This document shows, one piece after another, positions 16,771 to 51,530 of a stretch of 64,000 nt of DNA. This stretch comes from Isoetes taiwanensis. Lineage: Eukaryota > Streptophyta > Lycopodiopsida > Isoetales > Isoetaceae. The notes below the pieces were generated by a model. It was not told the DNA's origin and did not search any database. It was given only the letters and a program-made list of their open reading frames with translations. Where the stretch lies: the NCBI GenBank assembly GCA_021234155.1, contig JAJEKV010000059.1, positions 62,001 through 126,000 on the forward strand. The letters are read 5' to 3'. Every line of letters starts with the position of its first letter. Positions within the stretch are counted from its first letter, which is position 1. Made by a program: the position numbers and the translations under genes.

Positions 16771-16874
16771 GAAGATTCCTTTCTAAAATCATATTATTTA
16801 TTTGAAATGGCCCTTTTTGGGGTTTAGTCCAAAAAATCATGGTGATTACAATTTAATATGTGCTATTTTAGCCC

Positions 16875-16912
<38 letters not shown>

Positions 16913-31384: not shown

Positions 31385-31595
31385 GTATGGCGCTTATCTT
31401 GCCAGCGTCTGTTCTTGTAACTTGAGCATCAGGACTCCGTTTTCGATGATCTTCAGTTTGTTGGAAAGCTTATTCCGAGAGCTTTCTATCAGTATAAATT
31501 TTATTAGGGTTTGCAATTAGGTTGGTGGCTGGATTTGGGCCTGTGTGATTTCGGCCACTTTTCGTAGAGATGGGGAAGAAACATGATTGCAAATT
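31385..31595. other. Possible 3' untranslated part of the LINE, no gene
   Basis: No features are recognised apart from the palindrome that follows at 31596. Confidence 0.35.
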
Positions 31596-31623
31596 AAACG
31601 GGAGTGTTGCAGCACTCCCGTTT
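31596..31623. repeat. 28-bp near-perfect palindrome, second copy of the GGGAGTGTTGC family
   Basis: AAACGGGAGTGTTGCAGC continues into ACTCCCGTTT, with one mismatched pair. It is preceded by GATTGCAAATT, as the copy at 16743 is preceded by TTGCATATT. Near 51520-51550 the inverse context GCTCCCGTTTAATATGCAAT occurs. Candidate left end of the methyltransferase-bearing element. Confidence 0.9.
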
Positions 31624-33140
31624 CGAAGATGCCCTTGAAAAAAACAGCTTGCTCTAGAAAATGACACTTTTTTCCTTCTAATTGGGAATTCCAGTAGGCT
31701 TAATTTTTTTTACCTCCTTTTTGGCCCCTTAGTGCAAAAGAACTTGGATTTTGCTAGAAGCAGCACTTGAAAAGGGAAGAATTTAGACATGCTTTTGTAT
31801 TCTCAAAAAGTATTTTCTTGAAAACACCAGAATGCAGTGAATAAAATAATTATTATATAACTAGTAATGGTGCCCAGCGTTGCTGGGCATAAGTCCAGAG
31901 CTCGCAAATGTTTTGGCCACAATAAGAAAAGCGCGCATCCTGTTAAAATAACGGTTGCGATCTTTTGATGCGATCTTTTGTTGGTTCTCACCACATAACC
32001 GATGTGGTCTTTTGTTAATTCTTACTGCATTTGAGAATAAATCGGTATGTGTCTGACGTATTTCAACATGAGATTAGTTGTATTATGGATACCAATATGT
32101 TGCAATATGTATGTTGAATGAGGCATATGTTGTTAATAGGAAATGTGTAAAATGTTCTAAGACTTTAATTGTATATTTGCTTGCAACTTTTATCAATGTC
32201 AAATGTAATTTGATTAGTCTTTGCTTTATCTTAATCAATGGAATTGCTCTTAAAAAACATATTCACACAAATGTTTCATGTTTATTGTTATCTTTAATGA
32301 GTTTATAACTGGTTTCCAACTTTTTGGTAAATGCGTGCAATGCAGAGTTATCCAAGGCCGTTGGAACTTGGGGTTCCTTTATAAACCTTAAATCTTTTTC
32401 AAAGATAGTCACTTTGCATCATGCAAAAGCAACAAAAATTCTATTTGCAAAGGACATAAGTTTAAGAAAGTCTAAAAGTCCACAACAATGAACTAAAAAC
32501 AGCCCGTCCACAATAACCACCAATATAACATAACAAACACATCAAAGAAACAAACAAAACCCCTTTCAGTAGGTTCCCCAATGACGCATCTTGCAGTTTT
32601 GTTGGCTTTTGTTTTTATTGAAATTATTTGGGCCATTCGATAGGGCATTTTTCTCCCAAGGTTTATGCCTGCGGCGGTTTGAGGCAGCCGGAGTTGGGAT
32701 GTCCGAAAAAGGGGGAGTCTGAACGTGTGATTGTCTATGATTGTCTTTCGTTTCTAGAGCTGGACGATTTTTGGTGGAGGCCATGCCTTTTTATTCGTTT
32801 ATCTCTTGTTCATTCTTTGTTCTAGGGCCCAGGTAGCTTGCGAGGTAGGTTCGGCAGTCCGTGATCAATTTTTAGCCCTCTTTTCGGTTAAACTTCTTCC
32901 ACGGCTATTCGGAAGCAATCATTGGCCATTTCTGATTGGGTTTTATTTCTCAAGGATGGAATTTTTCCCGGAGGAATTTTTGCTTGTGTTGATCGAGTTT
33001 TTCTTCTTGTTGTTCTCCTCTCTTTTGGGATTGGTGTGCTTGTGCCGATCAAAGGGTTTTCTTTGCTATTGTTAAGCCCCTCTTCATCATTGGATTTTGG
33101 AACACGGTGTTTTGCCCGTGGGGTCCAATTCCCCTACCGG

Positions 33141-33260
33141 TTCAATGTTCATACCTTATTGTTGTTTTGGTTGGCTATTTCTGTTCTTTTGCTTCTAATG
33201 TTCAATGTTCATACCTTATTGTTGTTTTGGTTGGCTATTTCTGTTCTTTTGCTTCTAATG
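33141..33260. repeat. 60-bp perfect tandem duplication
   Basis: TTCAATGTTCATACCTTATT starts at 33141 and again at 33201, each running to TGCTTCTAATG. It lies inside Helitron copy 1. Confidence 0.93.
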
Positions 33261-34480
33261 TATGGCTCTTTTGCTTCTAATGTTTGGCTGATGCCACTTG
33301 TTCACATCTCTGTATTGTGCATCTGTTCTTTTGCTACTAATCTGGGGTTGATGCCACTTGTATCTGGCTAATGCCACATGTACGAACCAGATTTGTTGTG
33401 AATTGCCAATGATCATTGGCATAGAAGGCTAGGATTTTTTTTAATTCATGGAGGGACCAAAATACACAAAAAGGGTAGCATCTATATCAGCAACCAAGAA
33501 ATATACCTACATTTTATGCAGCCTTTGACAAAAGTTGAGCTAAGCTCATTGTTGCGGAAGACATATAAGCGCCCACGAATTTAAGCAAAAAAACCCACAA
33601 ATTTATCTCGAACCCACAGATTTATATTTCATGTAGGCTTCAAGGATGCTAGGTCGGCTGTCACCAAATTTTGGCCACTGGACTCCAATTCCAAAAGAAC
33701 CACCTACGTATTTGGATGGGCCAAGCTCATATCGGAGGATGCAAAGCTAAGCTTATCCATGCCGCTTTTATCTTTGCAGTAAAAAAGGATAGCAGCATTG
33801 CTTGGCAATTAACAAACAGGCCGCTGCTGCTCAAGGGTTTTGCCCTTAAAGGTACAGTAGAACATTAGATACACACAGAAACCCAGACATCAACATTTGT
33901 AACTGGACACAAGCGGTTTTTGTTGGAACAGCCTTATTGTCCACCTTGATGTCCACGTACATCAAGGTCAGGTTAATATCCTGACATGTTAAATATGATT
34001 GCGCAGTCCTTTGGGCTAACCAAATTTCCAGTAGAATAGTTCATAGTGGCTCCAATACCCCTATTAAACACCCCAGTTAAATAATTAATCATTTTATACT
34101 TCTGAGGAATAAACCTGTGATCAGAAATGCTTGATATTATTTACATATATGATTCTCCTTTATCATTGGAGAGCAAAACAGATTTAAAACAACCACTTTA
34201 ACTTGTTAAAATGTAGGTCTGACAAAAAAAAGTATCTCTCAACTTCATATGCCTTATAGTCAATTCACATACCTTAGTATCACCTTGGCATATGCTAACT
34301 GTCTTCCACAGAGGAACAATTGGAACTTTGATCGTTCTCCTTGATCTTATAATTCGAAGAACACTTCCTCTCCACGGTCTTGGATATCTCTTCGGCTCTT
34401 TTCAATTTGTCACCTACAAACACTTCAAAACCTGTATACTTTATACTGCATTGTGCATCATTTTTGGAAGTCTCTGTGCC

Positions 34481-34738
34481 CTATATATGTGTTCCATACA
34501 CATCAACAACTTTAGCATCAATGTCGTCATCTAAGTAAGCCTGAAAGTCACCATTATCACAATCAATCCCATATTTGATTGCATCCACTGCAAACCTCTT
34601 TAAGGCTATGGTCTTATCTCCCTGAAAATCAGTGGGAAGCTTTCCACAATCATTTAAAGAAGTAGCATTGCTTAAAGCATCATTGTTGAAATGATGCACT
34701 CCATGGATCCAACAAAGGTAGAGAACTGGTGACATCAA
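34481..34738 (-). CDS. Unidentified coding-like fragment within Helitron copy 1
   Basis: An 85-codon minus-strand frame has non-repetitive, protein-like composition (for example ALKRFAVDAIKYGIDCDNGD, then AYLDDDIDAKVVDVYGTH). Its first 20 residues look like intron read-through, so it may be an exon. I do not recognise the family. Helitrons commonly carry host gene pieces, so a captured exon is a reasonable guess; chance is also possible. Confidence 0.3.
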   Translation of the reverse strand: MMSPVLYLCWIHGVHHFNNDALSNATSLNDCGKLPTDFQGDKTIALKRFAVDAIKYGIDCDNGDFQAYLDDDIDAKVVDVYGTHI

Positions 34739-35343
34739 TTTCCTACAATTTCCTAACTTTGCAGCTCTTCCTTGCTTTTTGAGCTTTTATAATCTGTATT
34801 TTCATCATTCATTTGTAACGCCCTGTCTTTATTCATGGCAATAGCTTTGTTCTTGCTGCCAGAAAAGCTGCATAAGTTGTCATTTCAAACGCAATTCTGT
34901 TTTGCAGCATGTGAAATGCCACTTTAGTTCTCTATGAGTTCAGAATGTCTAGTTTGCTATATGCCACTCAACTTTATCTAGCCTTTCCTGTGATATTTGC
35001 GAGAGAAAATGTAAAATTGTTCCTGCTGTTTGCAGAGATCCAGCACATGCCTCACAAATCTTCAACCTTCAAAAAGCGAAAGAAATTACAAATATTCAAG
35101 ATACCAACAAAAAGGAATCAATCATGATCGCATGGCATGAGATTCAGCGGCTTACCTGAAGACCTCAGTCCTTGGTTGCGAATGTGAAAAAAATAAACTA
35201 AAATTTTGAGATGGTGATGCGACCCGGCAATAGGTGCGGGACTTGGCATTTAAAACGTAGTTATTTAATTTATAAGAACTTGCAATTCTCTCCAAAATAC
35301 AAACTTGAAAAACAGTTACATAAAGCTATAGGCCAAAACACCA

Positions 35344-35823
35344 TTGAGAGTCCATAGGCCAAAACTACAAAAAGCCGACAAGTCATGCCAATTGGAGATG
35401 GGTGCGGGGAGTGACGGATCATCCTATGCCAATAAAAACCCGAACAATAAATTTATTTACACCTATATACATGTGCATGTGCTTTTGTTGGGCGTGGAGA
35501 AAAAAAATATTATCATGCCAACATCATTGATTCCCCAAATCCACAAAAATGCTCTAGATTCTTTATATACAACATGGTTTGAATTCACTATAAGCTATGA
35601 AGGAACCAACATGGGCAAATACAATAAAGCTAATAAAAAGATAACAAAGCGTAAGCGAAACCCGATCAAAGACCTTTGTATTTGTGATCTTGCCCACAAT
35701 GTGGCAACATTTCTTTGTTACAAAAGCTTGATCTTCTATGTGAATTCTGCTTTACCACATGCACGCTTTGCTCATCAAATGTCCAAATATCTCATGCAAA
35801 CCTCTAAATATCGCCATAAATAA
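35344..35823 (+). other. 159-codon open frame inside Helitron copy 1, unassigned
   Basis: The predicted peptide is rich in lysine, asparagine and isoleucine and shows no domain I recognise. AT-rich composition may be enough to keep it open. Recorded because it is among the longest frames here. Confidence 0.15.
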
Positions 35824-36638
35824 ACCAATTTAAATGATAAGCATTAAGATAATCAACCAATGCAAAACATAAGAGATTTTCAACATGTTAATCAATTCTT
35901 ACACGAATACTACGGTCCATTCCTAGCAAATCATTCACCCATAATCTCAACATGTTAATCAATTCTTACACGAACACTTACGGTCCATTCCTAGCAAATC
36001 ATTCACCCATGAGCGGCAGCTTGATGCTTGTGATAGTCAAAAGAAACACGAAGATAGCATAGGCGCAACCCGCCGGAAAAAGCGGCTTAGGGCTTCTAAA
36101 GGTCCATTCCTAGCAAATCATTCACCCATGAAGCGGCCTGATGATGACTACATTTGCGGCTTAAACTTTTCAGGGCTAGCAATCGGCCTATTCTTATCTT
36201 CCATTTTTTCTCCGAATCGTCTTTTCTAAGCTCTTTCCCGGGCTGGCAATCCGGCCCCCTTTTTCTCTGAATCATCTTACGCCCGGACATGTTTTTCACG
36301 TGATGGATAAGCAGTTTCGTATATATCCGACCCTATGCCTGCATATCCGGTTGTGAAGCGAATGATCGACTCTGCCATTCTTCCTTCAAAGTATCCGGCC
36401 CCCCTTTTTTCTCGAATCATCTTCTATTCTAACTATTTCCCTTTAAATCTTAGATATTTTTTATCTTTTAAGTGATGGATAAACAGTTTTATTTAAGCAT
36501 ATCCGCCCTATGCCTAAGCGTGTCATATCAAAAACAATTAGGGGCGTTGAAACTTCACGCGGAAAATATCCCATGACATAGAGCCAAGCATCAGCGGCCC
36601 TTCTATTCTAACTATTTCCTTTAATGCCATAGGATAAG

Positions 36639-36930
36639 CGCCTTCCCACGCCAACCAAGAATCTAACAAAAAAAACACAAAAAAAACATCTAAAGAAACT
36701 GACGTGGCATCATCTCCTCCATTGGCTTGATCAAATCTGGAGCGTCCAAATTAGGGCTGGGTCCAACACTTACACAATAACATTATCGCCTTCCTCGCCA
36801 ACCAAGAATCTAACAAAAAAAACACAAAAAAAACATCTAAAGAAACTGACGTGGCATCATCTCCTCCATTGGCTTGATCAAATCTGGAGCGTCCAAATTA
36901 GGGCTGGGTCCAACACTTACACAATAACAT
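36639..36930. repeat. ~146-bp direct duplication at the 5' end of Helitron copy 1
   Basis: CGCCTTCC followed by CGCCAACCAAGAATCTAAC occurs at 36639 and 36787. Both copies run through GACGTGGCATCATCTCCTCC to CAATAACATTAT. The outer copy carries on into the true terminus ATAATATAGGA; the inner one stops at ATTAT. So part of the terminus is duplicated internally. Confidence 0.9.
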
Positions 36931-37110
36931 TATAATATAGGATAAAGAATGTTTCAATGACACAATTTGTAACAACACATGAAGGTGAGTAATAATTTTT
37001 TTTGTAAAAGACAGACTAAAGGTCCAAATCAAAGTCTTCGTCATTCTTTTTGCTTGTTTCTGCTGTGCCAGATTCTGTAGTCTGAACCTTTTCTTGTGCC
37101 TTACCCTTGT

Positions 37111-40100
37111 CTATTCTGCAGTGTCTTCAGGAATGGTAGCTAGTGCCACTTCTTTCAGCTCTGTAAAAGTAGCTTCATCCTCTAAAGAGCTAGTGAATGG
37201 AGGCTGTATCTCAGAAGGGGTCAGCTTGGCAAAATCGGACGAGGATTTGGCGCCTAACTCTTGGTGCTCATCTGGTAGAGTAGGCAAGGCTGCCAGTCTC
37301 ATCTTGATGAATTGCACAGCTTCTTTATCAATGTCCACTGCTAGACAATTCCGGCCCTTCTTAAGTGCACAAGCTATTGTTGTACCAGAGCCAGAGAAGG
37401 CATCAAGCACCCAATCTCCTGGACGTGAAAACATGTCTAGGAGATGGTTGATTAGCTTTTGAGACTTCTGATAGTGATTAACAATTCTACCTTGTGCACT
37501 AGGGTCTTGTAGCTTTTGAAGCACAGCTGGAAATTCCAAAACATTAGAAAAATTCTGGCATGTTGCTGTGTTAAAATGCTCCATGGTGCGTTTGCCATCG
37601 AAACTCCAGTAAGCAACATGGAGGTATTCAACCTTACTCAGCACCCTCGGCCAGCCGCCATGGTAGTTTATATTTGTTTTGTACCTGTAGAAATTAGAGT
37701 CGTGTCACTAACGAAAACAGAACAAAAAACAAACAAAGAGAACAAGTCAAAGACAATCTTATTCTGGAATAGAAAACTAAAACAGAAAGAAGAAAGAAGC
37801 CCAACGTATTCCAGAATAAGGTACTCGCCAAACCAAATTCTCATAACCAGCTTGCACTGGGGATCCGAAATGATTTTTGAACGTGGACTCCACAAGACGC
37901 CAGTGCTTGGCCGTTGTGACTTGTTTGATGCCGTCGACGAAAGCGTTAAACTCTGAAAATTTAAAAGGCTGACCGTCGTAACGGCTGTCTTTTAGTTTAA
38001 AGCCATAGGGAAGGTCTGCTATGACTAGTGTAAAATCATGTGGCTTTACTGTTCCAACCAGTTTAGTGCAGTCCCCGTGGATGATAGAAAACAAATTATT
38101 TTGGTCGTACAAACTAAACTTTTCATAATCAGAAGGCTCCACTTCTAGAGTCCTCCTATCTGCCAGTGTTCTTTCTTCTCGTGCCAGTCTCACGAGGTGC
38201 ATGAAACCTTCTGGCAGGTCCTTATTTTTCTTCTTGTCCTGCAAACAAAGGGGAGATTGAGACAGAGACAAGTCAAATATGACGTGTTTAGTCAGCGTAC
38301 CCATCCTTCAAAATTTGGTGCGTACTGAACAATACGCTCGTCGGATGTAGCTATGGGGTAAAGCTCCTTGCACCTCTCCCACGTTTCCACGTTAAGTTGC
38401 TCCATCAGAAGTCTGGCAGGTGATAACATTTTTTTGGCTTGAAAGAAAACCACAGCAGTTTTAGCAGTTGGAAAGTGAAAACGTAAAGTAAACTATCTTC
38501 CTGCCAAGTAAACTTATTCTAGAATACAAGTGCCTTAGACAACATTTTTGTTGTTGCAGTAGTGTATGCATTAGGAATTTTTTGAGATCATAAAAGGGCC
38601 TTCTAAGAACTGCTGACTAAGCTATATGAACTACCAATCAGAAAACAGAACTGGTAATCCAGTCAGCAAAACAATTATAACTAACTCACTGGATCACATT
38701 TTCTAGCATAAGTGTTGATAGGAAAGTCCAAATGAGCTCTTGTTTGGTGCAATAGATAGATCTCATTGAGATCTTTCCAAACTTCGGTGGTTTGCATATG
38801 TTTTAGCCCCGTACGATAGTAAAAAATGGTAAAAACCACATTTTTTGGAATTTTGACAATCATAAGTGGTTAAAATACATGTAAAGATCTCAACGAGATC
38901 TATCTATTGCACTAAACGAGAGCTCATTTGGACTTTTCTATCAATAGTTATGCTAGAAAATGTGATCCGATGAGAGTTAATTATAACGATTTTCTTGGAC
39001 CGGACCCAAATCGAACTCTAATTTCTGATTGGTAGTTCATTTATCTTCATTTGGCTTAGTTGGCATGTTTTGAAGGCCCCTTTTTAATCTCAAAAAAACC
39101 CTAATGTCCAGAATACACTTTAACTGCGGAGAAGGAGCGAAAGTGTATTCCGGAATACACTTCTACAACGCAACAAGTTAGAGTGTGTATTCCAGAATAC
39201 GTTTTCGCTGACTGAAAGGATCCGAAGTGTATTCCAGAATACACTTTAACTGCGGAGAAGGAGCGAAAGTGTATTCCGGAATACACTTCTACAACGCAAC
39301 AAGTTAGAGCCTGTATTCCAGAATAGGTTTTCGATGACTGAAAGGATCGGAAGTGTATTCTGGAATACACTTTTACACTACAGGAAAATGAAGATGTATT
39401 CTGGAATACACTTTCGATCCCTCGAGGGTGAGAAAGCATTTTGAGGAGTACCCGACTGCTGTTATCTTAAGGTAGTTGTAGAATTCTACAAGTGAAAAGG
39501 CAGCAATGATGGTAATGCTTACTTGTGCAACTCCTTCGACATTTCTTCGAGTGTGAACTCCTTGTCCACCACCTTCTGCAGAAGCCGTTCTAGTAACTTT
39601 CAGGTGTCGGTAAACCCCCGCATCTCTCCCTCCGGGCGTGAAGGTGATAGTAATTTCTTTCTTTGGCACGTCGGTGCCTTTCTTCTTCTCCGAGACCTTG
39701 CCTTTACTTTTTAGCTCACCATGCTCAAACATATTAAATATTTCATTTTGGAGCTCCCAGATCTACAAACAAAATAAGAAACTTAAAAGCTAGTTGCACA
39801 CTAAATTTTATTCTGGAATACGCTTGTAACATACCCGGCCATCCCTGAATGCTAGCTGAAACCAGTTGTCATGACCATTGAGTGACGCCCGTTTGTTCGC
39901 CTCGTCGTATTTAAGGCAACACTCAATGGCACAAGCTTCTTTAAGTTCAAGGGAGTACTGTGGCTTCTTTAAATCCTCTCCGTACTTTTCCTTGAAGATG
40001 ACATATTCTCTGTGCATAAATCTAATTTTATCGACGAAGCTCATTTTTAACTTGTACTCGTTGTCAACGTTGTGAGTGTTGGCAACGATCTTGGCTTCTT

Positions 40101-41616
40101 CGTCGGTCAAACCACAGTAGACTGCACAGAGGACAGACAAGTACCTAGGATTGTTTTTTTCTTTGTATAATTGCCTCCTGGCCTTGAAGCTGTGGTTCCC
40201 ATCCAAAACATAATGCGTATATGTGTCCGCATTTTCTCTATCGTACTCTGCAGGAGTTTTGCACTGTTCTCTATCAACAAGAACAACAATAGGAGCAACA
40301 TGGGCGTTTGGATTGCTCTGAATTCTGTCCTTGAGGTTCCTTAGATGATCTGCATATATCTTTCGAACCTGCAGTGGTCGTTCTCCAGCTTCATTTTTTG
40401 GAGGAAGCTTCATTGATGTGACTGGCAAATAAATGAAACCTTGCACAAATTTGTGCAGGTTAATCTCTTCCATTTTCTCTGCTGTTTTATCAACCTTTTT
40501 TTCTTTAATGGCAACACCAGGTGCTTTGCCCTTCCCCTTCTTCTTCTTGTGTGCTTCCTGAGGAGCATCTTCTATTACAATTACAGCAGTTTTCCTTTTT
40601 TTAGGCTCTTTAGCAGCTATGGTTTGCCTCTGCTTCTTTGGCGGTGGTGATGGTGGCTGCTCTTCCGAATCTGATGGACTCCCTGATGGGCTCGCAGACC
40701 TTGATGGACTCCCTGATCCATTCCCTTGGTCTTCCTCTTCCCCCTGCTCTGACTCGCTGTGGGCGAAGTCTTCGCTTTGTGTGCTTCGAACGTCGTTGAT
40801 TATGGCACTGAGCGATCTCTTGTTGATATAGTGAGAAACATACTTGTAAAGTGCCAGTGGGTTTACTTTGACCAATCTAAAAAAGGCTTCATCTACATGA
40901 ATGAAACCTTGGGATGTTGCAAACGATAGTCTCCCTTGTTGTCCCGACTCCCCAGCTACTTCACTCACAGCTTGTATGGTGCCCATGCAGACAAATTCTC
41001 TGTCATCGTACCTTTTTGCACCAGGGCTCCGACAGACATGTAAGAAAGTAAGGGTACTGTACTTTCCAGCTGTACCCCTTGTAAAGAACCACTGAGTTTG
41101 AAAGTTCTCGTAAATCCCAGGCGCAATAGTATCATCAACCCGTTTCTTGCTGCCTTCTTGCCTGTACAAAATGTGAGTAAACACAATTTTTTTAGTGAAA
41201 ACACTGGCATAAAACTATTCCAGAATACACAATGTCTTAAACAAATGATAAAAAGAGTACAGAAAGAGGACAAAAAGGCCAAAACAACAATGCGCCCTTG
41301 ACAAAAAAACAGGCCCAAACAAGTCTAAAAAGCAGAAAAAACGCCTAAAATTGACGAGAAAATGCGAAAAAATTGTCCTTTTAAAATCAAAAGTCACGAA
41401 AGTGTATTCCAGAATATACTTCCACCTTCGCGAAGGTGTATTCTGGAATACACTTCAAAGTGTATTCCGGAATACACTTCAGCAGACACATTGAAGCAAA
41501 AGTGTATTCCGGAATACACTTTGGCTTCGCCTTCACGCGAAGGTGAAACTGTATTCCAGAATAAGAAACAAGCTTAAAAATGATTGTACGTTGTACTTTG
41601 TTGCTTACCTGTCCAT
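37111..41616 (-). CDS. ParB-like domain fused to a beta-class DNA methyltransferase (six exons, one apparent frameshift)
   Basis: Predicted exons on the minus strand: 41616-41609, 41161-39835, 39762-39523, 38412-38301, 38238-37829 and 37684-37111. All phases join except for one surplus base in exon 3 near 39600, where homology-like sequence (LERLLQKVVDKEFTLEEM) resumes in the next frame. Total is about 889 residues. Exon 2 holds an acidic/serine region, a lysine-rich likely nuclear signal (KKKKGKGKAPG), then a ParB-like domain: IYADHLRNLKDRIQSNP, APIVVLVD and YVLDGNHSFKARRQL. Exons 5-6 hold the methyltransferase: motif IV ADLPYGF; a target-recognition-like middle; NHYQKSQKLINHLLDMFSRP; and the SAM motif VLDAFSGSGTTIACALKKGR. 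Motif order IV then I is the beta class; DLPY suggests adenine N6, with cytosine N4 possible. ParB-methyltransferase pairs are typical of phages and plasmids. Function here is inferred. Confidence 0.8.
37760..37818. repeat. Two TATTCNNGAATA palindromes in intron 5
   Basis: TATTCTGGAATA at 37760 and TATTCCAGAATA at 37807 lie inside the 144-bp intron. The second is only 11 bases from the exon 5 splice donor. Confidence 0.9.
38563..39106. mobile_element. Foldback/MITE-like element with ~230-bp inverted arms in intron 3
   Basis: The left arm begins CATTAGGAATTTTTTGAGAT (about 38567) and the right arm ends as its inverse, ATCTCAAAAAAACCCTAATG (to about 39106). Arms stay paired through GAACTACCAATCAGAAA / TTTCTGATTGGTAGTTC and GGATCACATTTTCTAGCAT / ATGCTAGAAAATGTGATCC. 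The best-matched part is around AGTCCAAATGAGCTC and AGATAGATCTC. The central loop is about 90 bases near 38790-38875. I could not see a target duplication. If transcribed in the intron, it would form a long hairpin RNA. Confidence 0.85.
39107..39409. repeat. Dense array of GTGTATTCCGGAATACAC palindromes in intron 3
   Basis: Full palindromes are centred near 39151, 39194, 39235, 39277, 39318, 39361 and 39402, after a left partial one at 39107. Spacing is about 42 bases, near four helical turns. A 126-bp direct duplication (39107-39232 and 39233-39358) accounts for part of the array. Several copies are symmetrical over 22 bases (AAGTG...CACTT). Centre dinucleotides vary (CG, CA, TG), so the outer arms are the conserved part. 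Confidence 0.95.
41216..41563. repeat. Second palindrome cluster, in intron 1
   Basis: TATTCNNGAATA sites occur at 41216, 41405, 41439, 41463, 41505 and 41552, most of them with the full GTGTATTC...GAATACAC arms. All are inside intron 1 of the methyltransferase gene. Confidence 0.95.
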
Positions 41617-41950
41617 GCCTTCTCTATGTGGATCGGAATACAGTCTCTGAATATTATATTCGAGGCGCTGGCGCTGGCGACTTGAGCTCAGAGACTGGAA
41701 TACGCAACTGAAGGCGCCAAAATTTCCTTTTAAAGGTATCCATTTCGTCTTGCTCGTTTTCTATGTGAAGTGGAATACATTTAGCCTTACTGTTCTGCTC
41801 GAGTGTATTCCGGAATAGCTTTTAGTTTGCCTTTCACTTAATTGTTACATGAACTTCTTCTTGTACCAGGTGGGCTTGTATTCGGGAATAAGAAAAGCTA
41901 TGCAGTAGAGAAAGTTTCTCATTTCCCTACACTGTTTTGCAGTTCTTAAG
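41617..41950. promoter_or_regulatory. Shared divergent promoter with palindromes and half sites
   Basis: This 334-bp gap separates the start codons of the minus-strand methyltransferase gene and the plus-strand transposase-like gene. It contains full sites at 41807 (TATTCCGGAATA) and 41879 (TATTCGGGAATA), and GGAATAC half sites near 41635, 41698 and 41772. One factor binding here could control both genes. The sites also fit the heat-shock element pattern TTCNNGAA, an alternative reading. Confidence 0.6.
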
Positions 41951-44196
41951 ATGACAAACCGCTTCGTCAACAAACTTCCACCACCTTTCGTTGTCTCAAG
42001 CTCGTCTAGTTCTGAGGACACGCTCGGGAACAACTTCTTTTCTTCTGAAGACCGGTATTCTCCGACTCCTACCTCTACTTCATCGTTCTTGCTTCTCGAA
42101 GAGACACCGAGTCCAGCATGTAACAGACTTCCACCACCCTTCCAACCGTCACCAAGTCAAGTAGACATGACACTGGAATCTCCTTCCAAAGCATCACCAC
42201 CAGTTCGGAGCATGCTGCCACCACCCTTCGTTCCATCCCCCGGACCTACAGATGCTCCACAACAACGGGTGCTCAAGAACAAGATACCCCCCCCCCCCTT
42301 TTGTAGTTTTGCCCCCTTCGTGCAAACATACAAGGAACACAGAAAACACAGAAGACTGTGAGATTCACTATAATTTCTCTCACCAGGACTTCACTACAAA
42401 TGAGGACGATGCTGCAGCATGTACTCCTCTTCACACAACGGTTGTGACACATGGATTTGCAGAATTCTAGTCCGCTCTAAAGGACATGTTTGCAAGAACT
42501 CCTTTTCAAGATGGTACAAGAACAGCTGATGCCACAACCTCTTATGGGCCATCACCATCCTTTAACAACTGTACTACCGCCTTTTCCGGGAACAACTTCC
42601 ATTGGTCTGTTTTCCTCTACAAATACACCAATCGGAGACAGGAGGAGGTTACCCCTAGAGTAGAAGTTTCATCGAAGATGATGACACCAAACGGAACAAG
42701 GAGATTACATGTTCTCCAGCCAATCTTCAAAGAAATTCAAGGTGGATTTTAGTTTGAGAGCATGCTCTTCTGTAAGAAGAAGAAACCTTATGGATGAACA
42801 CAAAATGAGAAGACTCCTGAGAACTAAATGCTGCTCATTGGGTTGCATCAACAGATTTAACATGGCCAAACTACGAAAGATTTAGAGACAACTTCTGAGT
42901 TCAATGACATTGGCGCACTGAATGCCTACTTAGCTTATCATGTAAGACCAGACCGCAGCACCTTCTTGCACTACATTAACCGTGAACAAGTCTGCTAAAA
43001 ATGCTTCATGGTTGTCCACCGTCTAGGGCCCTGTGGACCAAGAAGAGTTGTAACTATGCATGCCCTGGCTGCTGTTACATGGATGGAGAAATATTTTAGA
43101 GAGACATGTGAGAAGTTGCCTAATAGCAACATGTATCATCTCACAGACAATATTACAAAAAAAGACAAGAATACAAAGAGACATGCATTCAGTTTCAGCA
43201 CATCTCTTACTCACACTTCACCAGACTGTGGAAAAGTGAATTTGGCCTTGTGAAAATTCCAAGGAGACATAGAATGTCTGTTTGCTCGAGATGTGCAGAA
43301 TTAAAAAGTCAACGAGAAACTGCAAAGACAGAGGTCGAAAGAAGTAAGCTCATGTCCTCCATCCTATCACTTGCTTTGAAGAAAATTTTTTTAACCTGAT
43401 TTCTTTTACAGACATTGTGCAACAGAATCTTGCCAGACATCGTGAACAACAAGTAGCAGAGAGAAGAAAGCTCGCCAAACACAGAAAAAAAGCTCTTGAA
43501 CGTCCACTGCAATATATGTCCATTGTAATTGATGGAAAAAAAGACAACTCTACCCCATTTCCTAAATATTCCAAAAGATGTGCCAGAGGAATGTTTTGTT
43601 AAAGTCCACCTTGTAGGAGCCATGGTCTTTAAAGGAAGTCTAAAGTGCAAAGTATTTTTGACGTATCCAAACTTGCATGGTGACCCAAACCTGACAATTA
43701 CAATCCTTAATAAGGTCCTGTGCGAGCAAGAGCAACTACCACCTGTGCTCTACTTGCAACTTGACAATACTACAAGAGAGAACAAGAATCAAACACTCTT
43801 TGCTTATTGTGCTATGCTAGTGGAGCTAAGGATCTTCAGAAAAGTAAAGCTCGGATGTTCAACAGATTTTCTGTGCGCCTTAGAAGGAAGAAAGCTTTTT
43901 GTCTTCCTATTTTATTTCGAGTCATTGAAGATTCTTACACTCCTATTCCAGTGGTCGAGCTTCTTAAAGAGACTGCAGACTTTAGAGAGTTTGTTTTTCC
44001 TCAACGTTCAGATAGAGAACTGGCTGTGAACAAGTTGAATGATCTTACCTTTCAACATCACATCAAGTTCTACTTGAAGGATGGAGAAAGCTTCTTACAG
44101 GGGAAGAAGTACACCACAACTAAGGATTGGAGTCCAGCAGAGGGATTGCACTTCCTTAAATTTGTTCCAGACCATTGCCTCCAGGGAAAATTTTAA
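41951..44196 (+). pseudogene. DUF7869-type DDE-like transposase, N-terminal and core part, frameshifted
   Basis: The start MTNRFVNKLPPPFVV leads a region with four LPPPF-like motifs. A run of 13 C at about 42286-42298 shifts the frame (ends PPPPFVV in the next frame). Further on are CCSLGCINRF, MHALAAVTWMEKYFRE and a CSRCAEL cysteine pair. A likely intron follows, from GTAAGC near 43347 to TTTTACAG near 43411. The catalytic-like core reads MSIVIDG, then a slip at an A run near 43538, LPHFLNIPKDVPEECF and YLQLDNTTRENKNQTLFAYC. Next is FSVRLRRKKAF with VIEDSYTPIPVVELLKETAD. The third acidic motif expected between the last two blocks seems deleted. Several stops confirm decay. The family name is from memory; the DDE-like reading is inference. 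The C-terminal part is at 50263-51189, beyond an inserted Helitron. Confidence 0.7.
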
Positions 44197-45245
44197 GGGA
44201 CCTATAATTTTGTATAAGTATAATGAATTGGCCATTCCTTGTAAAATATGCCCCCAAAAGTGTAGCTTGAACTGGCCATTTTTCCTATTTTTTTCTAATG
44301 CGGCTGCAACCCAATTGGCGATTTCTGAACCAAATCCTTTATTATAAAGTTTTAGTGTATGTCGTGCATAAAACCCTAAAACTTTCGACGGCGCAGATTT
44401 GATGAAATCAATGGATCGGACCGCTTGGATTTAATCTAAAGATTGGACGGTCCAATTTTTCCCTCCTAGCTCTCGCTCTCGCTCTTCCTTTCCTTTACAA
44501 TAGCCGGATTTGATCGATCGGTTACTTGAAGGTTCGATAGCCAGTGCTTGCCATGGTTTCCTTGCCCTTCTTCTTGCTCTATGCCGGATTTGATGTTTCG
44601 GTTGCTGAAGAAGCCAGTCTCTTGCCGATTTTCCTAAGAGGCTATGGATAGAACTCACAGATCTGCATCATCTCAGGAGCACATTGAATGGCATAGCCTT
44701 GAGCTGGTTCTCATTCCGGTGCACTGCCACCTGTGGAATACAGTCTGCTTGAGCAGTTTGGCTTGCCTTCTATCCACAAAAATGATAAGTGCAAACAGAG
44801 GATGGAGCCGTTCAAGCTTATCAGTTGGTGACTTAAACAACATATGCAATTCTCATTCCAATAATCTTCCTGCTCCTGGTGAGTGTATTGGAATATTTTC
44901 ATTGCATTGCTGCTTTTAGAAGAAAAAGGTGCAAATTTGTATGTTTGCTCTCTTTTAGTAGAAGGTTCTAGCTTTAGATTTTGAAGTAAGTTTTTTCCTT
45001 CTGTGATTCTTAGTTTCCAAGACAGACATAAGCATATTGTGATCGATAAAACAAAATGGGTATTGATTACATGGTGGGTATTTTATGTCTGATAAATCGG
45101 CCCTAGCCATTCATGTGAGGTGAATCGGTTAACCATTCTGGTGCATAAGGAAGACTAGATAAATTTTTATGTTGTTTGCTTATGTTGCATGCTGATGAAT
45201 GGGTTCCAACAGGCATAGTTCCGTTCAGCAACAAGGGCTGCTCAT

Positions 45246-45559
45246 TGTCAAGGTTGCACCAAGGAAGGGAGAGAAAGGGATGCACACTGAATTCCGAGAG
45301 CGCAAGCTCCCAAAACAAAGCAAAAAGGAATTGTATTCAATGCTATCAATACATGACATACAATGATATAAACACAACGGTGATACTAAGAATAGTCTTA
45401 GCCGTTCACCCACCGCCCACTAATAACAGTCGTTACTTAGTTAGGTCGGCGCTCAGTGCTGATAAGGTGCTTTGTCAGCACTTATGTGCTGAGTGCTGTC
45501 AGTGCTGTGACATCACGTCTAGCAGCAAGATGGTGATCTCGATATCATATATCTCGACA
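45246..45559 (-). repeat. 3' LTR of the Copia element
   Basis: Its partner is 47274-47587. Visible differences are GG versus GA near base 20 and AATAG versus AAGAG near base 175 (plus-strand order). Confidence 0.95.
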
Positions 45560-45641
45560 CTCCTCCTTGATGAGAGATCGCCATCTCCATGCTCAGCCTC
45601 CTCCTCCTGGAGATAAGATCTGAATCTTGGTCAAGGCTTGC

Positions 45642-46028
45642 TTAATCAGGGTCATCCGAAAAGCTCAAAAACCAAGTTTGCATGAAGAGATCGGCTCTAT
45701 TCTCTCTGGTAGGTAAATAGACCTGCTGATCAACTACTGTATCAGGAACAGTAAGTCGAGAAGGATTGTCTTTGATATCCATAATTGTTTTGCCAAGAGG
45801 AGGATGAAAATTGTTTTCATGCATATCCTCGATGTAGGCAATAGAAGTATCAAAGATGATTACTCCGTTAAGGCTTGTGGATTCAATAACCACAAATGCA
45901 GCTACTCCAACAATGTTAGTTCGAAATTCTCCATGAAAATCAAACCTTAGTACCTTCGCTTGACCTTGATCAAGTGTTGCTAGAAGTAAAGAGTCAATTG
46001 CTCCTCCTTGCTTTAGAATCATGATCAT
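45642..46028 (-). other. 128-codon frame in the Copia interior, unassigned
   Basis: The peptide (for example RADLFMQTWFLSFSDDPD at its end) lies between gag and the 3' LTR. It shows none of the pol motifs. It may be a rearranged remnant or an extra ORF of the non-autonomous family. Confidence 0.3.
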
Positions 46029-46429
46029 ATATGATGCATATTCAACTCCTCCTTGATCAGGATGATTAAAATCATCTCCTGGATCAGATGGGTCAAGATC
46101 TCCTCCTAGATCGGATGTGTCAAGATCTCAAGGCCGTGATCGTAAAACAACGGGGTCTTGTAAGCACCGGCAGTGCCGGAAGTGTTGGAAGTCTTTGTAA
46201 GTCTTTGGAAGTTTCGTAATCCCAACGTAAAAATCAGGTTGATCGGGTGTTAGACCCCTCGAGTGCCTCCTTGCATAAACGCTGCCAAAGTATCAGAAAT
46301 GAATGCCACTTGATGAAGTGTTGCTACATTGCCTGAAAATGGAGAGATGAAGGCCACATCAAGATATCCTAGCTCAATGGCTGAGGTATCTACTAATCCT
46401 TGCTTCAAGGTGCTGAAATATTAGAAATT

Positions 46430-47223
46430 GGCATCCATTTATTGGGTGCTACCTTTGCATCGTCGATATCCGAAAGTAGAAGGATCTACATCCACTACTT
46501 CATGCTTAATAGGAAGAGATAATCTGCGGCCAATGTGCTTCTCCTCCTCATCATGCTCATCCCCATTCATGGTAGATTGAGTCTTTGAATGCCCTGCTGC
46601 AAAGAGAGTGGCATGATCATCTTTACCTGCATCTTGCCTCATCGTGGATCTCCTCCTTAATAGAAGTGATTGCTTGATGGAAGCCCATATCTTTGTCTTG
46701 CATGAAGCTGCCGCACAAAGAATCAAATGCATTAGGTAATGATCTGAGGAAGAAAAATAGTTGCATCGATTGTGAGATCGATGCTCTTCTCCAAAAGCTT
46801 CAATATCTTTGGAAGGCGTGCTTCATGCGATCTTGGTTAAGACTCTCTCTCTCTTCCCAATACGTGTTTGTTGCCTCAAAGATGCAAATGCCCAATAATG
46901 TGGGTCTTTTGGTCATGCTTCTCAATGAGAGCATGCCACAAATCATGGCTATTCTCTTGCTGGAACTCATCAAGGATAGAGTCAGCTAAAGAGAACCCGA
47001 TATATGCCATCGCCTTGTCATCTCGGCGCTGCCAAACATGCAAATCAGCAATATTCTTGGCATCCGGTGCAGGTTCTTGGCCATTGACAATTCCCCAAAC
47101 TCCTTCATCTTTGAGAATGAAGATCATTCCGCTTTTCCATTGCTGGAAACCTGTGCCGTCAAAGATTTGAATCGCATGACCGCCAGGGAAGGTAATCTGG
47201 TTGTAGCTTGCATCCTTCTCCAT
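46430..47223 (-). pseudogene. Copia gag-like gene, frameshifted
   Basis: The 5' part (47223-46876) is open and reads FDGTGFQQWKSGMIFILKDE, then GVWGIVNGQ, DDKAMAYIGFSLADSI and NSHDLWHALIEKHDQKT, the classic N-terminal gag order of plant Copia elements. Downstream the homologous frame changes: DRMKHAFQR, then LRSLPNAFDSLCGSFMQDKD, so there are at least two frameshifts or stops. No CCHC zinc knuckle is seen. Gag would package the RNA in trans at most. ATG at 47223 lies about 40 bases after the primer site. Confidence 0.85.
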
Positions 47224-47261
47224 TGCTGTGTTGATCTTGAATCAATCTCAGCACACCTAAT

Positions 47262-47273
47262 GCTCTGATACCA
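47262..47273 (-). promoter_or_regulatory. Primer binding site for initiator tRNA-Met
   Basis: TGGTATCAGAGC on the minus strand abuts the 5' LTR end. It is the usual priming site of plant Copia elements. Confidence 0.95.
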
Positions 47274-47587
47274 TGTCAAGGTTGCACCAAGAAAGGGAGA
47301 GAAAGGGATGCACACTGAATTCCGAGAGCGCAAGCTCCCAAAACAAAGCAAAAAGGAATTGTATTCAATGCTATCAATACATGACATACAATGATATAAA
47401 CACAACGGTGATACTAAGAAGAGTCTTAGCCGTTCACCCACCGCCCACTAATAACAGTCGTTACTTAGTTAGGTCGGCGCTCAGTGCTGATAAGGTGCTT
47501 TGTCAGCACTTATGTGCTGAGTGCTGTCAGTGCTGTGACATCACGTCTAGCAGCAAGATGGTGATCTCGATATCATATATCTCGACA
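47274..47587 (-). repeat. 5' LTR of the Copia element
   Basis: On the minus strand it starts TGTCGAGATATATGATATCG and ends CTTGACA. See the partner at 45246-45559. Confidence 0.95.
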
Positions 47588-47679
47588 CTCATGGCTGTAC
47601 TTAACTCCTGCATAAATTTTTAACTGCATGGAAGTACAATGAAGAAAGTCAAGAACCTCGAGTTGTTATTATAGGTACA

Positions 47680-47880
47680 AAAGCTTTTGCTTTGCATATT
47701 AGACATGATTGAATAACATTTGTGTTTTTTACTTGCAAAAAAATGCAAAGCAGTTCCTTACTTATGTGCATGTTCTTGCACAGCTTGGCCAATAGAACAA
47801 GCTTTTGCTTTGCATATTAGACACGATTGAATAACATTTGTTTTTTTTATTTGCAAAAAAATGCACAGTTCCTTACTTCT
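47680..47880. repeat. ~78-bp direct duplication
   Basis: AAGCTTTTGCTTTGCATATT with TTGCAAAAAAATGCA and AGTTCCTTACTT occurs near 47681-47762 and again near 47802-47878, inside Helitron copy 2. Confidence 0.88.
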
Positions 47881-49666
47881 CTTCCTTCCCTTCTCAACAA
47901 GGGGCCATGGCCATGGCCATGTAAAAAAAAAAAAAAAAAAGAAGGGAACCACCACACCAAATAGGGTCTGCATGGCTTTTCCGGGGAGGTTTCATTGATG
48001 TTTTCAAAGACGATTTTAAAAAATTGAAAATAAGTTAATGGCATCGAATCGGGCGAGGTCCCCATAGGATTGAGGTTCTTGCATCTATAGTGGCGAAATA
48101 TCAATACTATAGCCAAAGCCGATAACCCCAACCGGATTGTAACTCTTATCGATGCAACAGAGGAGGAATGCTTTGCTTTATACTGGTATGTCTTAAATCA
48201 TGACAAAATAAATTGCTTTGGACATCATGCTTTTTTTGTGCCCTTTTTCTAGACTATGCACGAGGATTGCACTATTTACGCTCATTTATACATCCTCATG
48301 GTGATGGAAGATTTGAATTTCTTTTCAGTCTATGCTACTACGATTATTGTAAATTGTACATACTCGACTAAACTTTATGAAATATAACATGCAAATGTTG
48401 TTGCAACTATGCGAAACAACTCGTTGGTTATGCAGACCAAACGATTCTTATGCATAATATAGCCTATACTTGATATTAGTTACCGGCGGCATGATGTAGA
48501 CCCGGTTAAAAGTTGAACATGAATCGGATATATTATGGAATTATTTGCTTTCGAAAAATTGGCATCTCGGTTTTGCGAGTTGACTAAACTGTTCCAAACC
48601 AAATCATTTCATGTTATACATGTTGCTCTTCATACATATTGCTCTTCATAATTCATCCACCGTGGCTTCATAATCCAAGGCTAGACCAGATCATGCGTTC
48701 ATGGTTGGTTGTGCCTGTTCGATCAAAGATGCGAGGTAAAATGATTGGACGAGAACAATGTTCATGTTGTGCTCTGTAAAGTTATCTTAAAACACGAGGC
48801 ATAATATTAATATGCATGACTTTGCTCTCAAATTTATATTTAATACAACATTAGCTTTTGGTTGATAATGAAGTCGCATCAGCTCGCAAACTTCACAGTT
48901 GGACATGGCCAAACTAGGTTTTTAATGAACCCGTAATGTCTTTCAACAAATGTGTTGTAACTACATTAAACTCAACGGCCTTACATCACTCTTAGAACAG
49001 TCATTTCAGATTATTGCCATTAGCATAACCACCATAGTTAAAATGTGCATCGATACGAGACTCATCAGATAGATTGCAATTTCTCCCCACATATTTATGG
49101 TAGATACCATTGTTAGAAAAGCTCCCGGTGATCGCTTCATTGAATAAATCTCTTACAATAGGCGCAAGTGTCTCCATTTCATGTATAAACATTTCAACTT
49201 TAAGAGGCTCACAGTCTTTAGTTTTTTTGAACACAGTTGTTTTATGATTCCGTGAATAAGAGAAGCAAAGGAGCAATCTACTACGGTTTTGGGAGCAGCA
49301 TCAGGCAACTTCAAATGCTGCATCTTGGGACATATCTGAATAGCAAGAATTGTGGTGATTCAAAAGCTACACGTAAATTTGCTTGGCCTTTTTTTTTTCC
49401 GAAGAAACTACATTTCCCATAAGTTCTCTAGCACCCGTCTTTTATGTTTAGGGTCCTTGCAGTTGCAACCCCTCAACACAACATTAAACCCATGGTATTG
49501 TGTAATGTTGAAAATCCTTTATAGGTTCAAACTACTTTTCCACTGCATTCGGCCAAAATTCGGCTTGGTTACAAAAGTTGGATTATTACTACACGCTTTT
49601 CTCATTTTAGCCAAAACATTTACAAGCTCTCAACTTATGCCCAGCAACGCTGGGCACCATTACTAG

Positions 49667-50262
49667 TATCTAATAATGTGTAGCTCAAATGGCAATTTTT
49701 AGCTAGATAAATATAGAGCTAGTTGCCCGAACATAAAAAAGTCGCTACCCTATCTAAATGTATTTAAGTTACATGTTGTATGAATTTTAATTCATACCCC
49801 ATATATTTCAATAATGCACATATTACTAGTAGGGAGAATCAGAAAACAAATGCCAGAGTCTTCGTAAAGAGGATTGAAAAGTGCCTCGACATTTGATTTT
49901 CCAAAAGAGCGGGATTATTCTTAGTTGGTAGAGATATTTAGGAATAAAAATTTCTAATAATGTTAGCCCCCCATAAGTGACGAATTTATGAGGGGGCTGT
50001 TAATAAGTTAAGACTTGGCGAACTTAAGGCATTACAGGATTTGGCCAAGTGGCCTAAATGGCCATTCCATAAGTATATCTAGTTCTCACTTGGGACTAAA
50101 TTGGCCCCAAAGTCAATACCACTCTAATTAGCAAACATCTAATTGGCCATTCTAATAGCGTAATAGGCAATAAAGTGCCACGAAATGGCGAATCTGCAGG
50201 TAGTCCGTAGGTAAGGCATCCTACTCAAGCTGGCCGTCGCATTTTGCATGAACCTGTAATTT
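49667..50262. other. Host-element sequence between Helitron and transposase C-terminus
   Basis: No protein is recognised. The words TGGCCATT and AAATGGCC recur. It may be an intron or decayed exon of the split transposase gene. Confidence 0.3.
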
Positions 50263-51189
50263 GTGGCCAAATGGCCCACCGGGGCCACTAAATTTTTTGC
50301 TGATTGCCTCATAGAGCATGCTGAGCAACTTCCTCTCAAAAATCCTAAGGAGTCCAAGCAGAAGAAAAGTACCCCATTGACATCCCTAAAAGCCATTGAA
50401 AATGGCATTTCCTCAAGCTTCAAGTACTTCTCAGAAGAAGATCAATTGTGGTGGACAAATTTCTTTCTTGACCAGAAAGAGGTCTTGCAAAATCTAGCTC
50501 TAAGACAGTTTCAAGAACCGTTTCAATGGCCTGACACCTTCCATCAACCCCAGAACCAAACAGGTCCAAGCAATGCTACAATAGCACCTGCAGCAGAGGA
50601 AGACGAGGATCGAGTCATGTACCTTGGACCAAGACGTAGGAATGAGCCTCGAGGCAATATCACAGAAATTGCCAAAGGTATGCTGATTGCTCTTCCAACT
50701 GAGGAAGATGACAAAGGTCGACCCTTTTGAATAGCAAAAGTTCTTGACACAGTCAAGGAGGAAGGCTTAGTAACTAAACTCAAGATTCACTGGCTGGTGA
50801 CACGTTCAGAAAATGCTTTTGAAGGTAGGTATGAATTAGAAATGAGAAGTCAAAGAAAAGGGAAGAAGTCTAAGAAAGTGGGTTGTAGAGATGAGCTGAA
50901 CTTGAATGATGTGACTATATTATGCTATGCTTTTAAATTGAAATCAGACAATCGTCTGCGCCAAAAAACTGTTAATTTGCTTAAAAAGGCTTGTAATTAC
51001 AAGAAAGAGGATGAAGAAGGGAGTGGTGGTGGCAATGCTTCACCATCTGTTGATAGTGATGAGGAAGACAACTCAAGCATTTCCTCCAGTGACAGTGAAA
51101 GAAGTGAAGGAGATGAGGATGGCATAAATGAACATGATGACGTCCTCGATCCCTCCTTCATCACTCCTCACACTTTTGCACATAACTGA
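50263..51189 (+). pseudogene. C-terminal part of the DUF7869-type transposase gene
   Basis: The plus strand reads IENGISSSFKYFSEEDQLWW, DRVMYLGPRRRNEPRGN, ITEIAKGMLIALPTEEDDKG and, after one in-frame stop at 50728, IAKVLDTVKEEG and KIHWLVTRSENAFEGRYELE. It then has LNLNDVTILCYAF and an acidic, serine-rich tail ending HN at a stop (51187). The order (ED.xWW segment, a GML-A box, then a chromo-like KVxxHW segment) matches the tail of DUF7869-type proteins as I remember them, and continues where 41951-44196 leaves off. The Helitron at 44335-49666 lies between them. Confidence is moderate because the link rests on recalled family layout. Confidence 0.6.
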
Positions 51190-51530
51190 GTCTTAGAAAA
51201 AGACTGTAAATTTTGCATGTGAATATGAAGATTTTATCTTCAAATTTTTAGAATACTACAGTATCAGTTACAGACTTTACTTCAATTTTTTGTTAAATAT
51301 TTTATCCTTTGAAATTAGAGTTTCTGTCTAAAAACATAGACAAGAACATTCTATTTGCTCTGAAAAGTGTCACTTTAAAAAAATCAATTCTTTCATTCCA
51401 CAAAAAAACTAGTCATTTGGAGGGGGGTCAAAATTGAATTTGATGCAACTTTTTTTTTTAACCTCATTTTACCCCCTTTTTCGTAAAAAAAAAGGAATCT
51501 TTTAAGAATATTCCTTTTGCTCTCGTTTCG
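51190..51530. other. AT-rich tail after the transposase; candidate right end of the element
   Basis: No gene. At its right edge GAATCTTTTAAGAATATTCC leads to CTCGTTTCGATGATTTG and GCTCCCGTTTAATATGCAAT (to about 51552). The last part is the inverse of the left-end context at 31584-31605. Confidence 0.45.

Follow-up and report, generated by a model that had tools for sequence, protein, structure and literature searches.

The closest described relative of the locus reported here is Sola1-1_Ec32, a 21.5-kb Sola1 transposon of the brown alga Ectocarpus that carries an accessory gene coding for a ParB-like domain together with a DNA methyltransferase; the protein of 1,104 amino acids is predicted to produce N4-methylcytosine (4mC) or N6-methyladenine (6mA), and its authors raise the idea that proteins of this kind bind to the transposon that encodes them and modify it (PMC12477816). 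Similar proteins have also been cited for transposons of green and red algae (Iyer 2011; Petroll 2025, both via PMC12477816). We analyzed a 64,000-nucleotide stretch (the window) of the Isoetes taiwanensis genome (contig JAJEKV010000059.1, positions 62,001 to 126,000), in which a six-exon gene on the minus strand (41616-37111) encodes a predicted ParB-fold domain fused to a beta-class N6/N4 methyltransferase and lies inside a DNA transposon. ParB-methyltransferase transposon genes are already known from algae, and the Isoetes taiwanensis family extends this known type; the palindrome arrays found in the introns and 5' region of the gene are new here. A first-pass annotation of the sequence knew of no described plant transposon with this fusion. 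For vascular plants, no report of a ParB-methyltransferase transposon gene, or of palindrome arrays in one, was found among the 10 to 20 entries listed per search of the open-licence literature.

Sola1-1_Ec32 resembles the Isoetes element in being a DNA transposon with the fusion gene inside the element, on the strand opposite the transposase. The Isoetes element is shorter (about 8.3 kb, with a protein of about 900 amino acids) and is present in very many copies in a plant, compared to the single family described from the brown alga, and the passages on Sola1-1_Ec32 mention no palindromic site arrays. A bacterial ParB-methylase fusion also joins a ParB domain, reported to be a nicking endonuclease, to an adenine methylase, but it is bacterial and stands outside any eukaryotic transposon (PMC5512222). 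Other DNA transposons also encode a methyltransferase beside the transposase; these belong to other families, their endonuclease and methyltransferase are separate genes, and the passages concerned name no ParB. DNA methyltransferases (DNMTs) are likewise encoded by retrotransposons in Symbiodinium and Klebsormidium, and Dam-like enzymes by DIRS elements, with self-methylation under discussion (PMC5890265); unlike the Isoetes element these are retrotransposons with C5-cytosine DNMTs or Dam-like enzymes, and ParB domains and site arrays go unnamed in the passages that describe them. The N4CMT of bdelloid rotifers is also a bacterial beta-class amino-methyltransferase with introns in a eukaryote, but it is a host gene that aids transposon silencing and is fused to a chromodomain (PMC8885841).

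Structure of the Fusion Gene

The motifs highlighted by the first-pass annotation were found on the minus strand where it had placed them, with DGNHSFKARRQL in exon 2, DLPYG in exon 5 and DAFSGSGTT in exon 6. The catalytic motif precedes the S-adenosylmethionine (SAM)-binding motif, which is the beta-class order. A profile search, proposed in that annotation as a check, matched exon 6 to PF01555 at 2.7e-16 (60.6 bits; family cut-off 26.7), and the methyltransferase region of copy C1056 matched phrog_67, a phage DNA methyltransferase, over nearly all of 244 residues (5.4e-24). The three closest solved chains were the bacterial enzymes CcrM, MboIIA and RsrI, with the match limited to the catalytic domain. 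MboIIA and CcrM are adenine-specific by their database names, and RsrI is adenine-specific too. An aspartate in motif IV points to an N6-adenine product, and because of this residue, conserved within DLPYG or DIPYG in 20 of 22 copies, the predicted product is more likely N6-adenine than N4-cytosine. No close phage or viral source was found in two pattern scans of viral contigs (11 and 3 matches, with 0 confirmed relatives), and a phage tblastn search gave methyltransferase-side matches at 22-24% identity among the 15 listed of 794. At L030 (C976) and L031 (C1039) a single PF01555 match runs across a short intron 5 to cover almost all of the methyltransferase domain, with two stops only, and at L032 (C1034) a PF01555 locus shows an exon-6 match alone and 0 palindromes in 8 kb.

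Sequence profiles matched the ParB part weakly (DUF6551, 8.4e-4; TIGR03764, 9.4e-4, both below the cut-offs; phrog_1033, 0.026), and the ParB likeness noted in the first-pass annotation was carried by the predicted fold, not by these matches. The ParB part was folded by itself because the model of the whole of exon 2 was poor (predicted local distance difference test score, pLDDT, of 46); this whole model gave no match to the PDB at E 0.001, and the exon-2 profile found nothing useful in the PDB. Folded alone with 20 relatives, the ParB part reached a mean pLDDT of 66, with ten-residue blocks of the core mostly between 77 and 86. The best Foldseek match was to a ParB (E 8.3e-4), and the top 14 of the 35 chains listed by a VIA structure search were ParB, Noc, KorB or PadC (Z 10.4-7.2), followed by sulfiredoxins from Z 7.0. 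The best VIA match (Z 10.4) extended over 103 residues at 3.9 A and another ParB over 95 residues at 2.8 A. By its predicted structure the ParB part has the fold of the ParB/sulfiredoxin superfamily, and the fusion of a ParB-like part to a beta-class amino-methyltransferase in one gene is borne out by this fold together with PF01555. When viral structure models were searched with the poor full-length prediction, a single match reached E<=0.001, to an uncharacterised protein of Cafeteria roenbergensis virus; a phage ParB/sulfiredoxin came next.

In copy C1056 the six exons form one continuous frame of 888 residues, every intron having a GT donor and an AG acceptor; close to the C terminus this frame diverges from the other copies. 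Six in-phase exons had been predicted for the window gene apart from one surplus base; the exons hold in C1056, and the surplus base is attributed to damage of the window copy, since its exon 3 aligns to C1056 in two frames only and its exon 5 is without 11 residues found in C1056 and C1099. Four of its five introns are GT-AG and intron 5 starts with GC; at this donor copy C1099 reads through to a stop, consistent with GTGAGT. The window copy is thus a decayed family member with no working gene.

Linkage of the two domains was repeated across the genome. For 35 of the 96 ParB-exon matches listed, a PF01555 match followed on the same strand no more than 30 kb downstream, at a spacing of 0.98-1.81 kb in 29 of these 35 pairs, and among the matches listed none had PF01555 upstream and none had it on the opposite strand. 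The genome holds at least 150 PF01555 matches, the window gene is not among the 35, and the counts are of matches listed, so that an unlinked match to either domain does not imply that its partner is absent. The linkage is far above chance. The alternative of two separate genes was rejected in view of the repeated order, strand and spacing (29 of 96 ParB-exon matches) together with the in-phase join in C1056.

The ratio of nonsynonymous to synonymous substitution rates (dN/dS) was calculated pairwise between near full-length, stop-free copies, with unusable pairs being saturated or outside the dS limits. The lowest median dN/dS was that of exon 6 (0.047; 8 of 28 pairs usable), followed by the ParB part (0.091; 25 copies, 46 of 300 pairs) and exon 3 (0.091; 21 of 171). 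Exon 5 (0.180; 4 of 45) and the N-terminal region (0.181; 70 of 300) were intermediate, and the linker had the highest value (0.347; 65 of 300). Earlier values for exons 5 and 6 (0.27 and 0.50) were discarded as inflated by decayed copies. These ratios speak for purifying selection on the ParB and methyltransferase exons in the past of the family, many present copies being decayed. The N-terminal region (exon 2, residues 1-128), conserved at a median dN/dS of 0.18, is without a Pfam match; residues 58-102 of the low-confidence full model align with a beta-propeller and other beta chains (Z 5-6), a likeness that may reflect a common arrangement only.

The Transposon and Its Copies

When six other copies were aligned to the window, the shared sequence stopped sharply at common limits, and the element ends were identical in C1052, C1056 and C1099, with AACAAGATTGCGTATTAAACGGGAG on one side and AACACGATTGCAAATTAAACGGGAG inverted on the other. 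Terminal inverted repeats and a 4-bp target-site duplication were present in all four copies with both ends visible (CTCG, AAGT and GTTA in the other copies), confirming the mobile-element setting that had been proposed for the gene. The three complete copies measured 7,949, 8,276 and 8,313 bp. A 20-mer of the terminal motif had 758 exact matches in the genome (1,658,258,908 bases searched) and its reversed control had 0; the first-look candidate counts of other genome searches (1,444, 4,597 and 9,908) are rough. The 100 places listed for this motif included at least 13 plus/minus pairs 8.0-8.7 kb apart, on contigs C23, C37, C39, C46, C120, C232, C256, C343, C390, C397, C434, C623 and C641.

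The window transposase matched PF25273 (DUF7869) at 2.4e-26 and 1.3e-7 and is broken by stops and by the insertion at 44182-50288. A ParB or methyltransferase match lay on the opposite strand within 12 kb of 29 of the 150 scored DUF7869 matches, 28 of them divergent, and a same-strand neighbor was found for one of the 150. As judged from the sequence, the ParB-methyltransferase gene is cargo of the transposon and not a host gene. The transposon is probably Sola-like, since 4-bp target-site duplications and terminal inverted repeats fit the Sola superfamily (PMC10741241), which is also present in the moss Physcomitrella (PMC10741241, PMC9033089). LQLDNTTRENKN and GHTHDQIDQMF hold acidic residues, picked by eye, that are candidates for the DDD residues of a Sola transposase, and the term DUF7869 was not found in the open-licence literature searched. 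No restriction endonuclease partner was noticed, two genes only being recognised by eye in the open reading frames (ORFs) of the three complete copies, not every ORF of which was searched; the ParB-like domain may itself be able to nick DNA. At the right end of the window element, and likewise in C1032, C1052, C1056 and C1099, the terminal repeat is adjoined by another short inverted repeat, AAACGGGAGTG...CACTCCCGTTT, which varies slightly between them and was not seen in the 60 bases inspected at the opposite end; it is a candidate transposase site.

Palindrome Arrays in the Methyltransferase Gene

The window contains 20 copies of the palindrome TATTCYRGAATA compared to 0.03 expected, with 17 in introns 1, 2, 3 and 5 of the fusion gene, one between the divergent genes and two at 17270 and 17301. 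Across 27 loci, none of the 161 palindromes between the first and last methyltransferase exon match touched an exon match (79% of the span). In the three complete elements none of 41 palindromes lay in the transposase half, there were none in 33 kb of flank, and none was found within 1 kb of either end. An exact 22-mer, AAGTGTATTCCGGAATACACTT, had 1,810 genomic occurrences and its reversal had none; all eight sampled 22-mer loci (from the early part of a contig-ordered list, one per contig with some contigs skipped) hold pieces of the element, which are degraded pieces only at L034 and L038.

The position of the arrays varied between copies. They were found in introns 1 and 3 (window, C1099 and C907), 5' of exon 2 (C976), in intron 2 (C970, C1049b and C357) and, in most others, in intron 3, with most loci covering about 40-100 bases 5' of exon 2 so that intron 1 fell outside the view. 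Of 128 neighbor spacings up to 130 bp, 65 were 42 bp and 17 were 41 bp, and a 42-bp step is close to four helical turns. In 16 directed comparisons of related copies, the ten core bases of the palindrome differed at 11 of 1,779 positions and other non-coding bases at 1,378 of 12,567, an approximately eighteen-fold difference. The central dinucleotide of the palindrome changes fastest (63/352), and 103 centers from seven copies read CG (40), TG (26), CA (25), TA (7) or other (5), the pattern that CpG methylation by the host, followed by CpG loss, would be predicted to leave.

A Sister Family With a Different Palindrome

Four of the five top-ranked DUF7869 matches without a listed ParB or PF01555 match nearby were taken as a sister family, with transposases 64-65% identical over the DUF7869 part. 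The four sister loci contained no TATTCYRGAATA and instead 6, 6, 13 and 6 sites of a second palindrome, GGTATAAATTTATACC (up to three mismatches), which at the same tolerance was absent from four window-family copies; GGTATAAATTTATACC occurred 7,218 times exactly in the genome and its reversal 0 times. Both palindromes have the form GTAT-N6-ATAC and are set apart by their six central bases, with GTAT-TCCGGA-ATAC in the window family and GTAT-AAATTT-ATAC in the sister family. A divergent ParB-methyltransferase gene, broken and 28-75% identical by piece, was identified at the sister locus L045+L043 together with 26 GGTATAAATTTATACC sites (up to two mismatches), located upstream, in the exon 2-exon 3 gap, in the exon 5-exon 6 gap and, once, past exon 6, with none of the 26 inside exon matches. 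Helical phase was better defined at the sister sites than in the window family, with a vector strength of 0.47 and 0.52 at 10.5 bp compared to 0.26-0.38 at 9.5, 10 and 11.5 bp. The two families suggest that DNA-binding protein and site have co-diverged, on evidence that is thin for the protein, where it comes from one sister locus. Sister elements L041 and L042 also bear GGTATGAATTCATACC and GGGATTAATTAATCCC, so that subfamilies may show additional variation in the palindrome's central bases.

Proposed Function and Alternative Explanations

A transposon family of about 8 kb carries, divergent from its DUF7869 transposase, a six-exon fusion of a predicted ParB fold and an amino-methyltransferase. 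We propose that this fusion binds the palindromes of its own family, probably via the ParB-like part. Binding would concentrate the methyltransferase on the element's own DNA, where it would deposit an N6-adenine (more likely) or N4-cytosine mark. To this reading, in which the fusion binds its own family's palindromes and marks the element, we assign a probability a little below 0.6. It is supported by the predicted ParB fold, the PF01555 match, the low dN/dS, the number, confinement, spacing and core conservation of the palindromes, and the sister family, in which a diverged ParB-methyltransferase and a different palindrome occur in the same layout. The weakest step is the purpose of the mark, which most likely would keep the element accessible, oppose host silencing or label the element's own DNA for the transposase. 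A narrower version, which we hold tentatively, is that each family has a private address, the fusion and its own intron palindromes co-diverging so that the protein would load on elements of its own family only and leave a mark other than 5-methylcytosine (5mC).

Several observations weigh against self-binding and self-marking. ParB proteins usually bind cytidine triphosphate (CTP) through the motifs GERRxRA and ENxxR, and the usual arginines of this site are absent by eye, with GGNHSFKARRQL (22 of 26 copies) and ANTHNADN (21 of 26 copies) standing there instead; a sliding clamp of the ParB type would be an appealing mechanism, but because these nucleotide-binding arginines are missing, CTP-driven spreading is not assumed. 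A helix-turn-helix was not identified in the protein, where the model shows helices after the ParB domain at a pLDDT under 60. On the catalytic side, DAFSGSGTT is exact in just 12 of 22 copies, the dN/dS of the two catalytic exons rests on the few usable pairs given above, N4-cytosine enzymes match too, if more weakly (8s9m, 0.027; PvuII, 0.099), and one phage match carries an N4 annotation. The comparison in which the palindrome core is conserved is biased to low counts, the query site being intact, and counts pairs both ways, so that they are not independent; the five-base arms flanking the core vary at about the background rate (164/1,779). Helical phase is weak in the window family, with a vector strength of 0.64-0.72 at any period from 9.5 to 11.5 bp and thus nearly as strong across this range as at 10.5 bp, and the 42-bp step could stem from tandem duplication. 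The commonest spacings in the sister family are about 28-32 bp and not 42, its site 7272 lies between two exon-2 matches and may be coding, and its gene is known from a single locus, at which it is broken.

The fusion could instead be an autoregulator that binds the palindromes of its own gene and of the shared promoter, limiting its own expression and that of the transposase as a form of copy-number control, with methylation switching the binding. The restriction of sites to the fusion gene and the spacer that separates it from the transposase gene, with none in the transposase half of the three complete elements, agrees with this, as does the location of window palindromes 10-14 bases from the 5' splice sites of introns 2 and 5. 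However, arrays that hold as many as seven or eight sites, lie far inside introns and occupy different introns in different subfamilies exceed the needs of a simple operator, and we consider this explanation unlikely. It is less probable still that the transposase or a host protein recognizes the palindromes and that the fusion serves another purpose, for example nicking or modifying DNA during transposition. The palindromes do differ between families whose transposases have diverged too, at the identity given above, and a bacterial ParB-methylase fusion is reported to nick DNA (PMC5512222), but TATTCYRGAATA is missing from the transposase half and from the last kilobase at the ends of complete elements, the right end bears a different inverted repeat, AAACGGGAGTG, and the palindromes track the methyltransferase gene in both families. 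Because of that right-end repeat and the weaker spacing evidence, we are slightly less sure of self-binding and self-marking and slightly more inclined to transposase or host sites.

A role of the palindromes as RNA, in hairpins or intronic double-stranded RNA, or their origin as an expanding short repeat, with the protein an ordinary methyltransferase, would account for sites that are mostly intronic and for tandem arrays with units of about 42 bp. We regard it as very improbable, given that the core is kept while spacers diverge, that single sites occur outside arrays and between genes and that the sister family has a different sequence at corresponding places. The two domains are typical of bacteria and phages, but bacterial contamination or an assembly artefact is refuted by the introns, by at least 150 PF01555 and at least 95 ParB-exon matches dispersed over many long contigs and by the 758 exact terminal repeats, in agreement with the eukaryotic origin argued in the first-pass annotation.

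Features of the Window

Table 1. Positions of the transposon, its genes, insertions and palindromes in the window.
Feature	Position	Strand	Basis
Complete element, about 8.3 kb of transposon sequence interrupted by three later insertions	31580..51563		Homology limits against complete copy C1099
Target-site duplication AAGA, left	31576..31579		Sequence
Target-site duplication AAGA, right	51564..51567		Sequence
Terminal inverted repeat AACATGATTGCAAATTAAACGGGAG	31580..31604	+	Sequence
Terminal inverted repeat AACAAGATTGCATATTAAACGGGAG, 23/25 identical to the other end	51539..51563	-	Sequence
DUF7869 transposase gene, divergent from the methyltransferase gene	41951..51189	+	PF25273, ORFs, C1099 comparison; ends imprecise
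Exon 1 (ATGGACAG)	41609..41616	-	Matching exon in copy C1056
Exon 2: conserved N-terminal region, lysine-rich linker, predicted ParB-fold domain	39835..41161	-	Sequence and predicted fold
Exon 3, reading frame broken in window copy	39523..39762	-	Copy comparison
Exon 4	38301..38437	-	Copy comparison
Exon 5, catalytic motif DLPYG, 11 residues absent in window copy	37829..38238	-	Copy comparison
Exon 6, SAM-binding motif DAFSGSGTT, PF01555	37111..37684	-	Motif and profile match
One palindrome TATTCYRGAATA between the divergent genes	41806..41817		Motif search
Six palindromes TATTCYRGAATA, intron 1	41216..41563		Motif search
One palindrome TATTCYRGAATA, intron 2	39809..39820		Motif search
Eight palindromes TATTCYRGAATA, intron 3, six at exact 42-bp steps (39146-39356)	38515..39408		Motif search
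Two palindromes TATTCYRGAATA, intron 5	37760..37818		Motif search
Later insertion, 5.07 kb	31861..36928		Without homology to C1099
Later insertion in intron 3, 0.54-kb foldback element	38568..39106		Copy comparison
Later insertion in transposase gene, 6.1 kb, copia-type gag inside	44182..50288		Copy comparison

Within the insertion in the transposase gene, the gag match (PF14223, 5.5e-11) lies between direct repeats that are 99% identical (45246-45562 and 47274-47590), and the foldback element in intron 3 has 95-bp arms that are 91% complementary. A diverged second family member at 16727-17312 has one terminal repeat (6 of 25 positions mismatched) and, 0.5 kb inward of it, two palindromes; the region at 15-20 kb gave no convincing protein match, and no second end was found within the window. 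Outside the transposon, a gene resembling the Replication protein A large subunit (7691-9245, minus strand; PF08646, 5.5e-43; PF16900, 2.5e-15) is a host gene or Helitron cargo, and pieces of a filament-like plant protein (53829-54505, plus strand; PF05911, 4.8e-28 and 2e-40) lie about 2.3 kb past the right end of the transposon.

Significance of the Family

The algal ParB-methyltransferases had a suggested function only, and here such genes are abundant in a vascular plant, with signs of purifying selection and with candidate target sites that differ by family. These family-specific candidate sites make the idea of self-binding and self-modification testable. If each family does have a private address, the system would combine, in a eukaryote, the equivalents of plasmid parS specificity and phage self-modification, at thousands of sites in one plant genome. 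The finding also bears on the disputed 6mA and 4mC signals of plants, as such genes, where numerous in a genome, could leave genuine marks of transposon origin.

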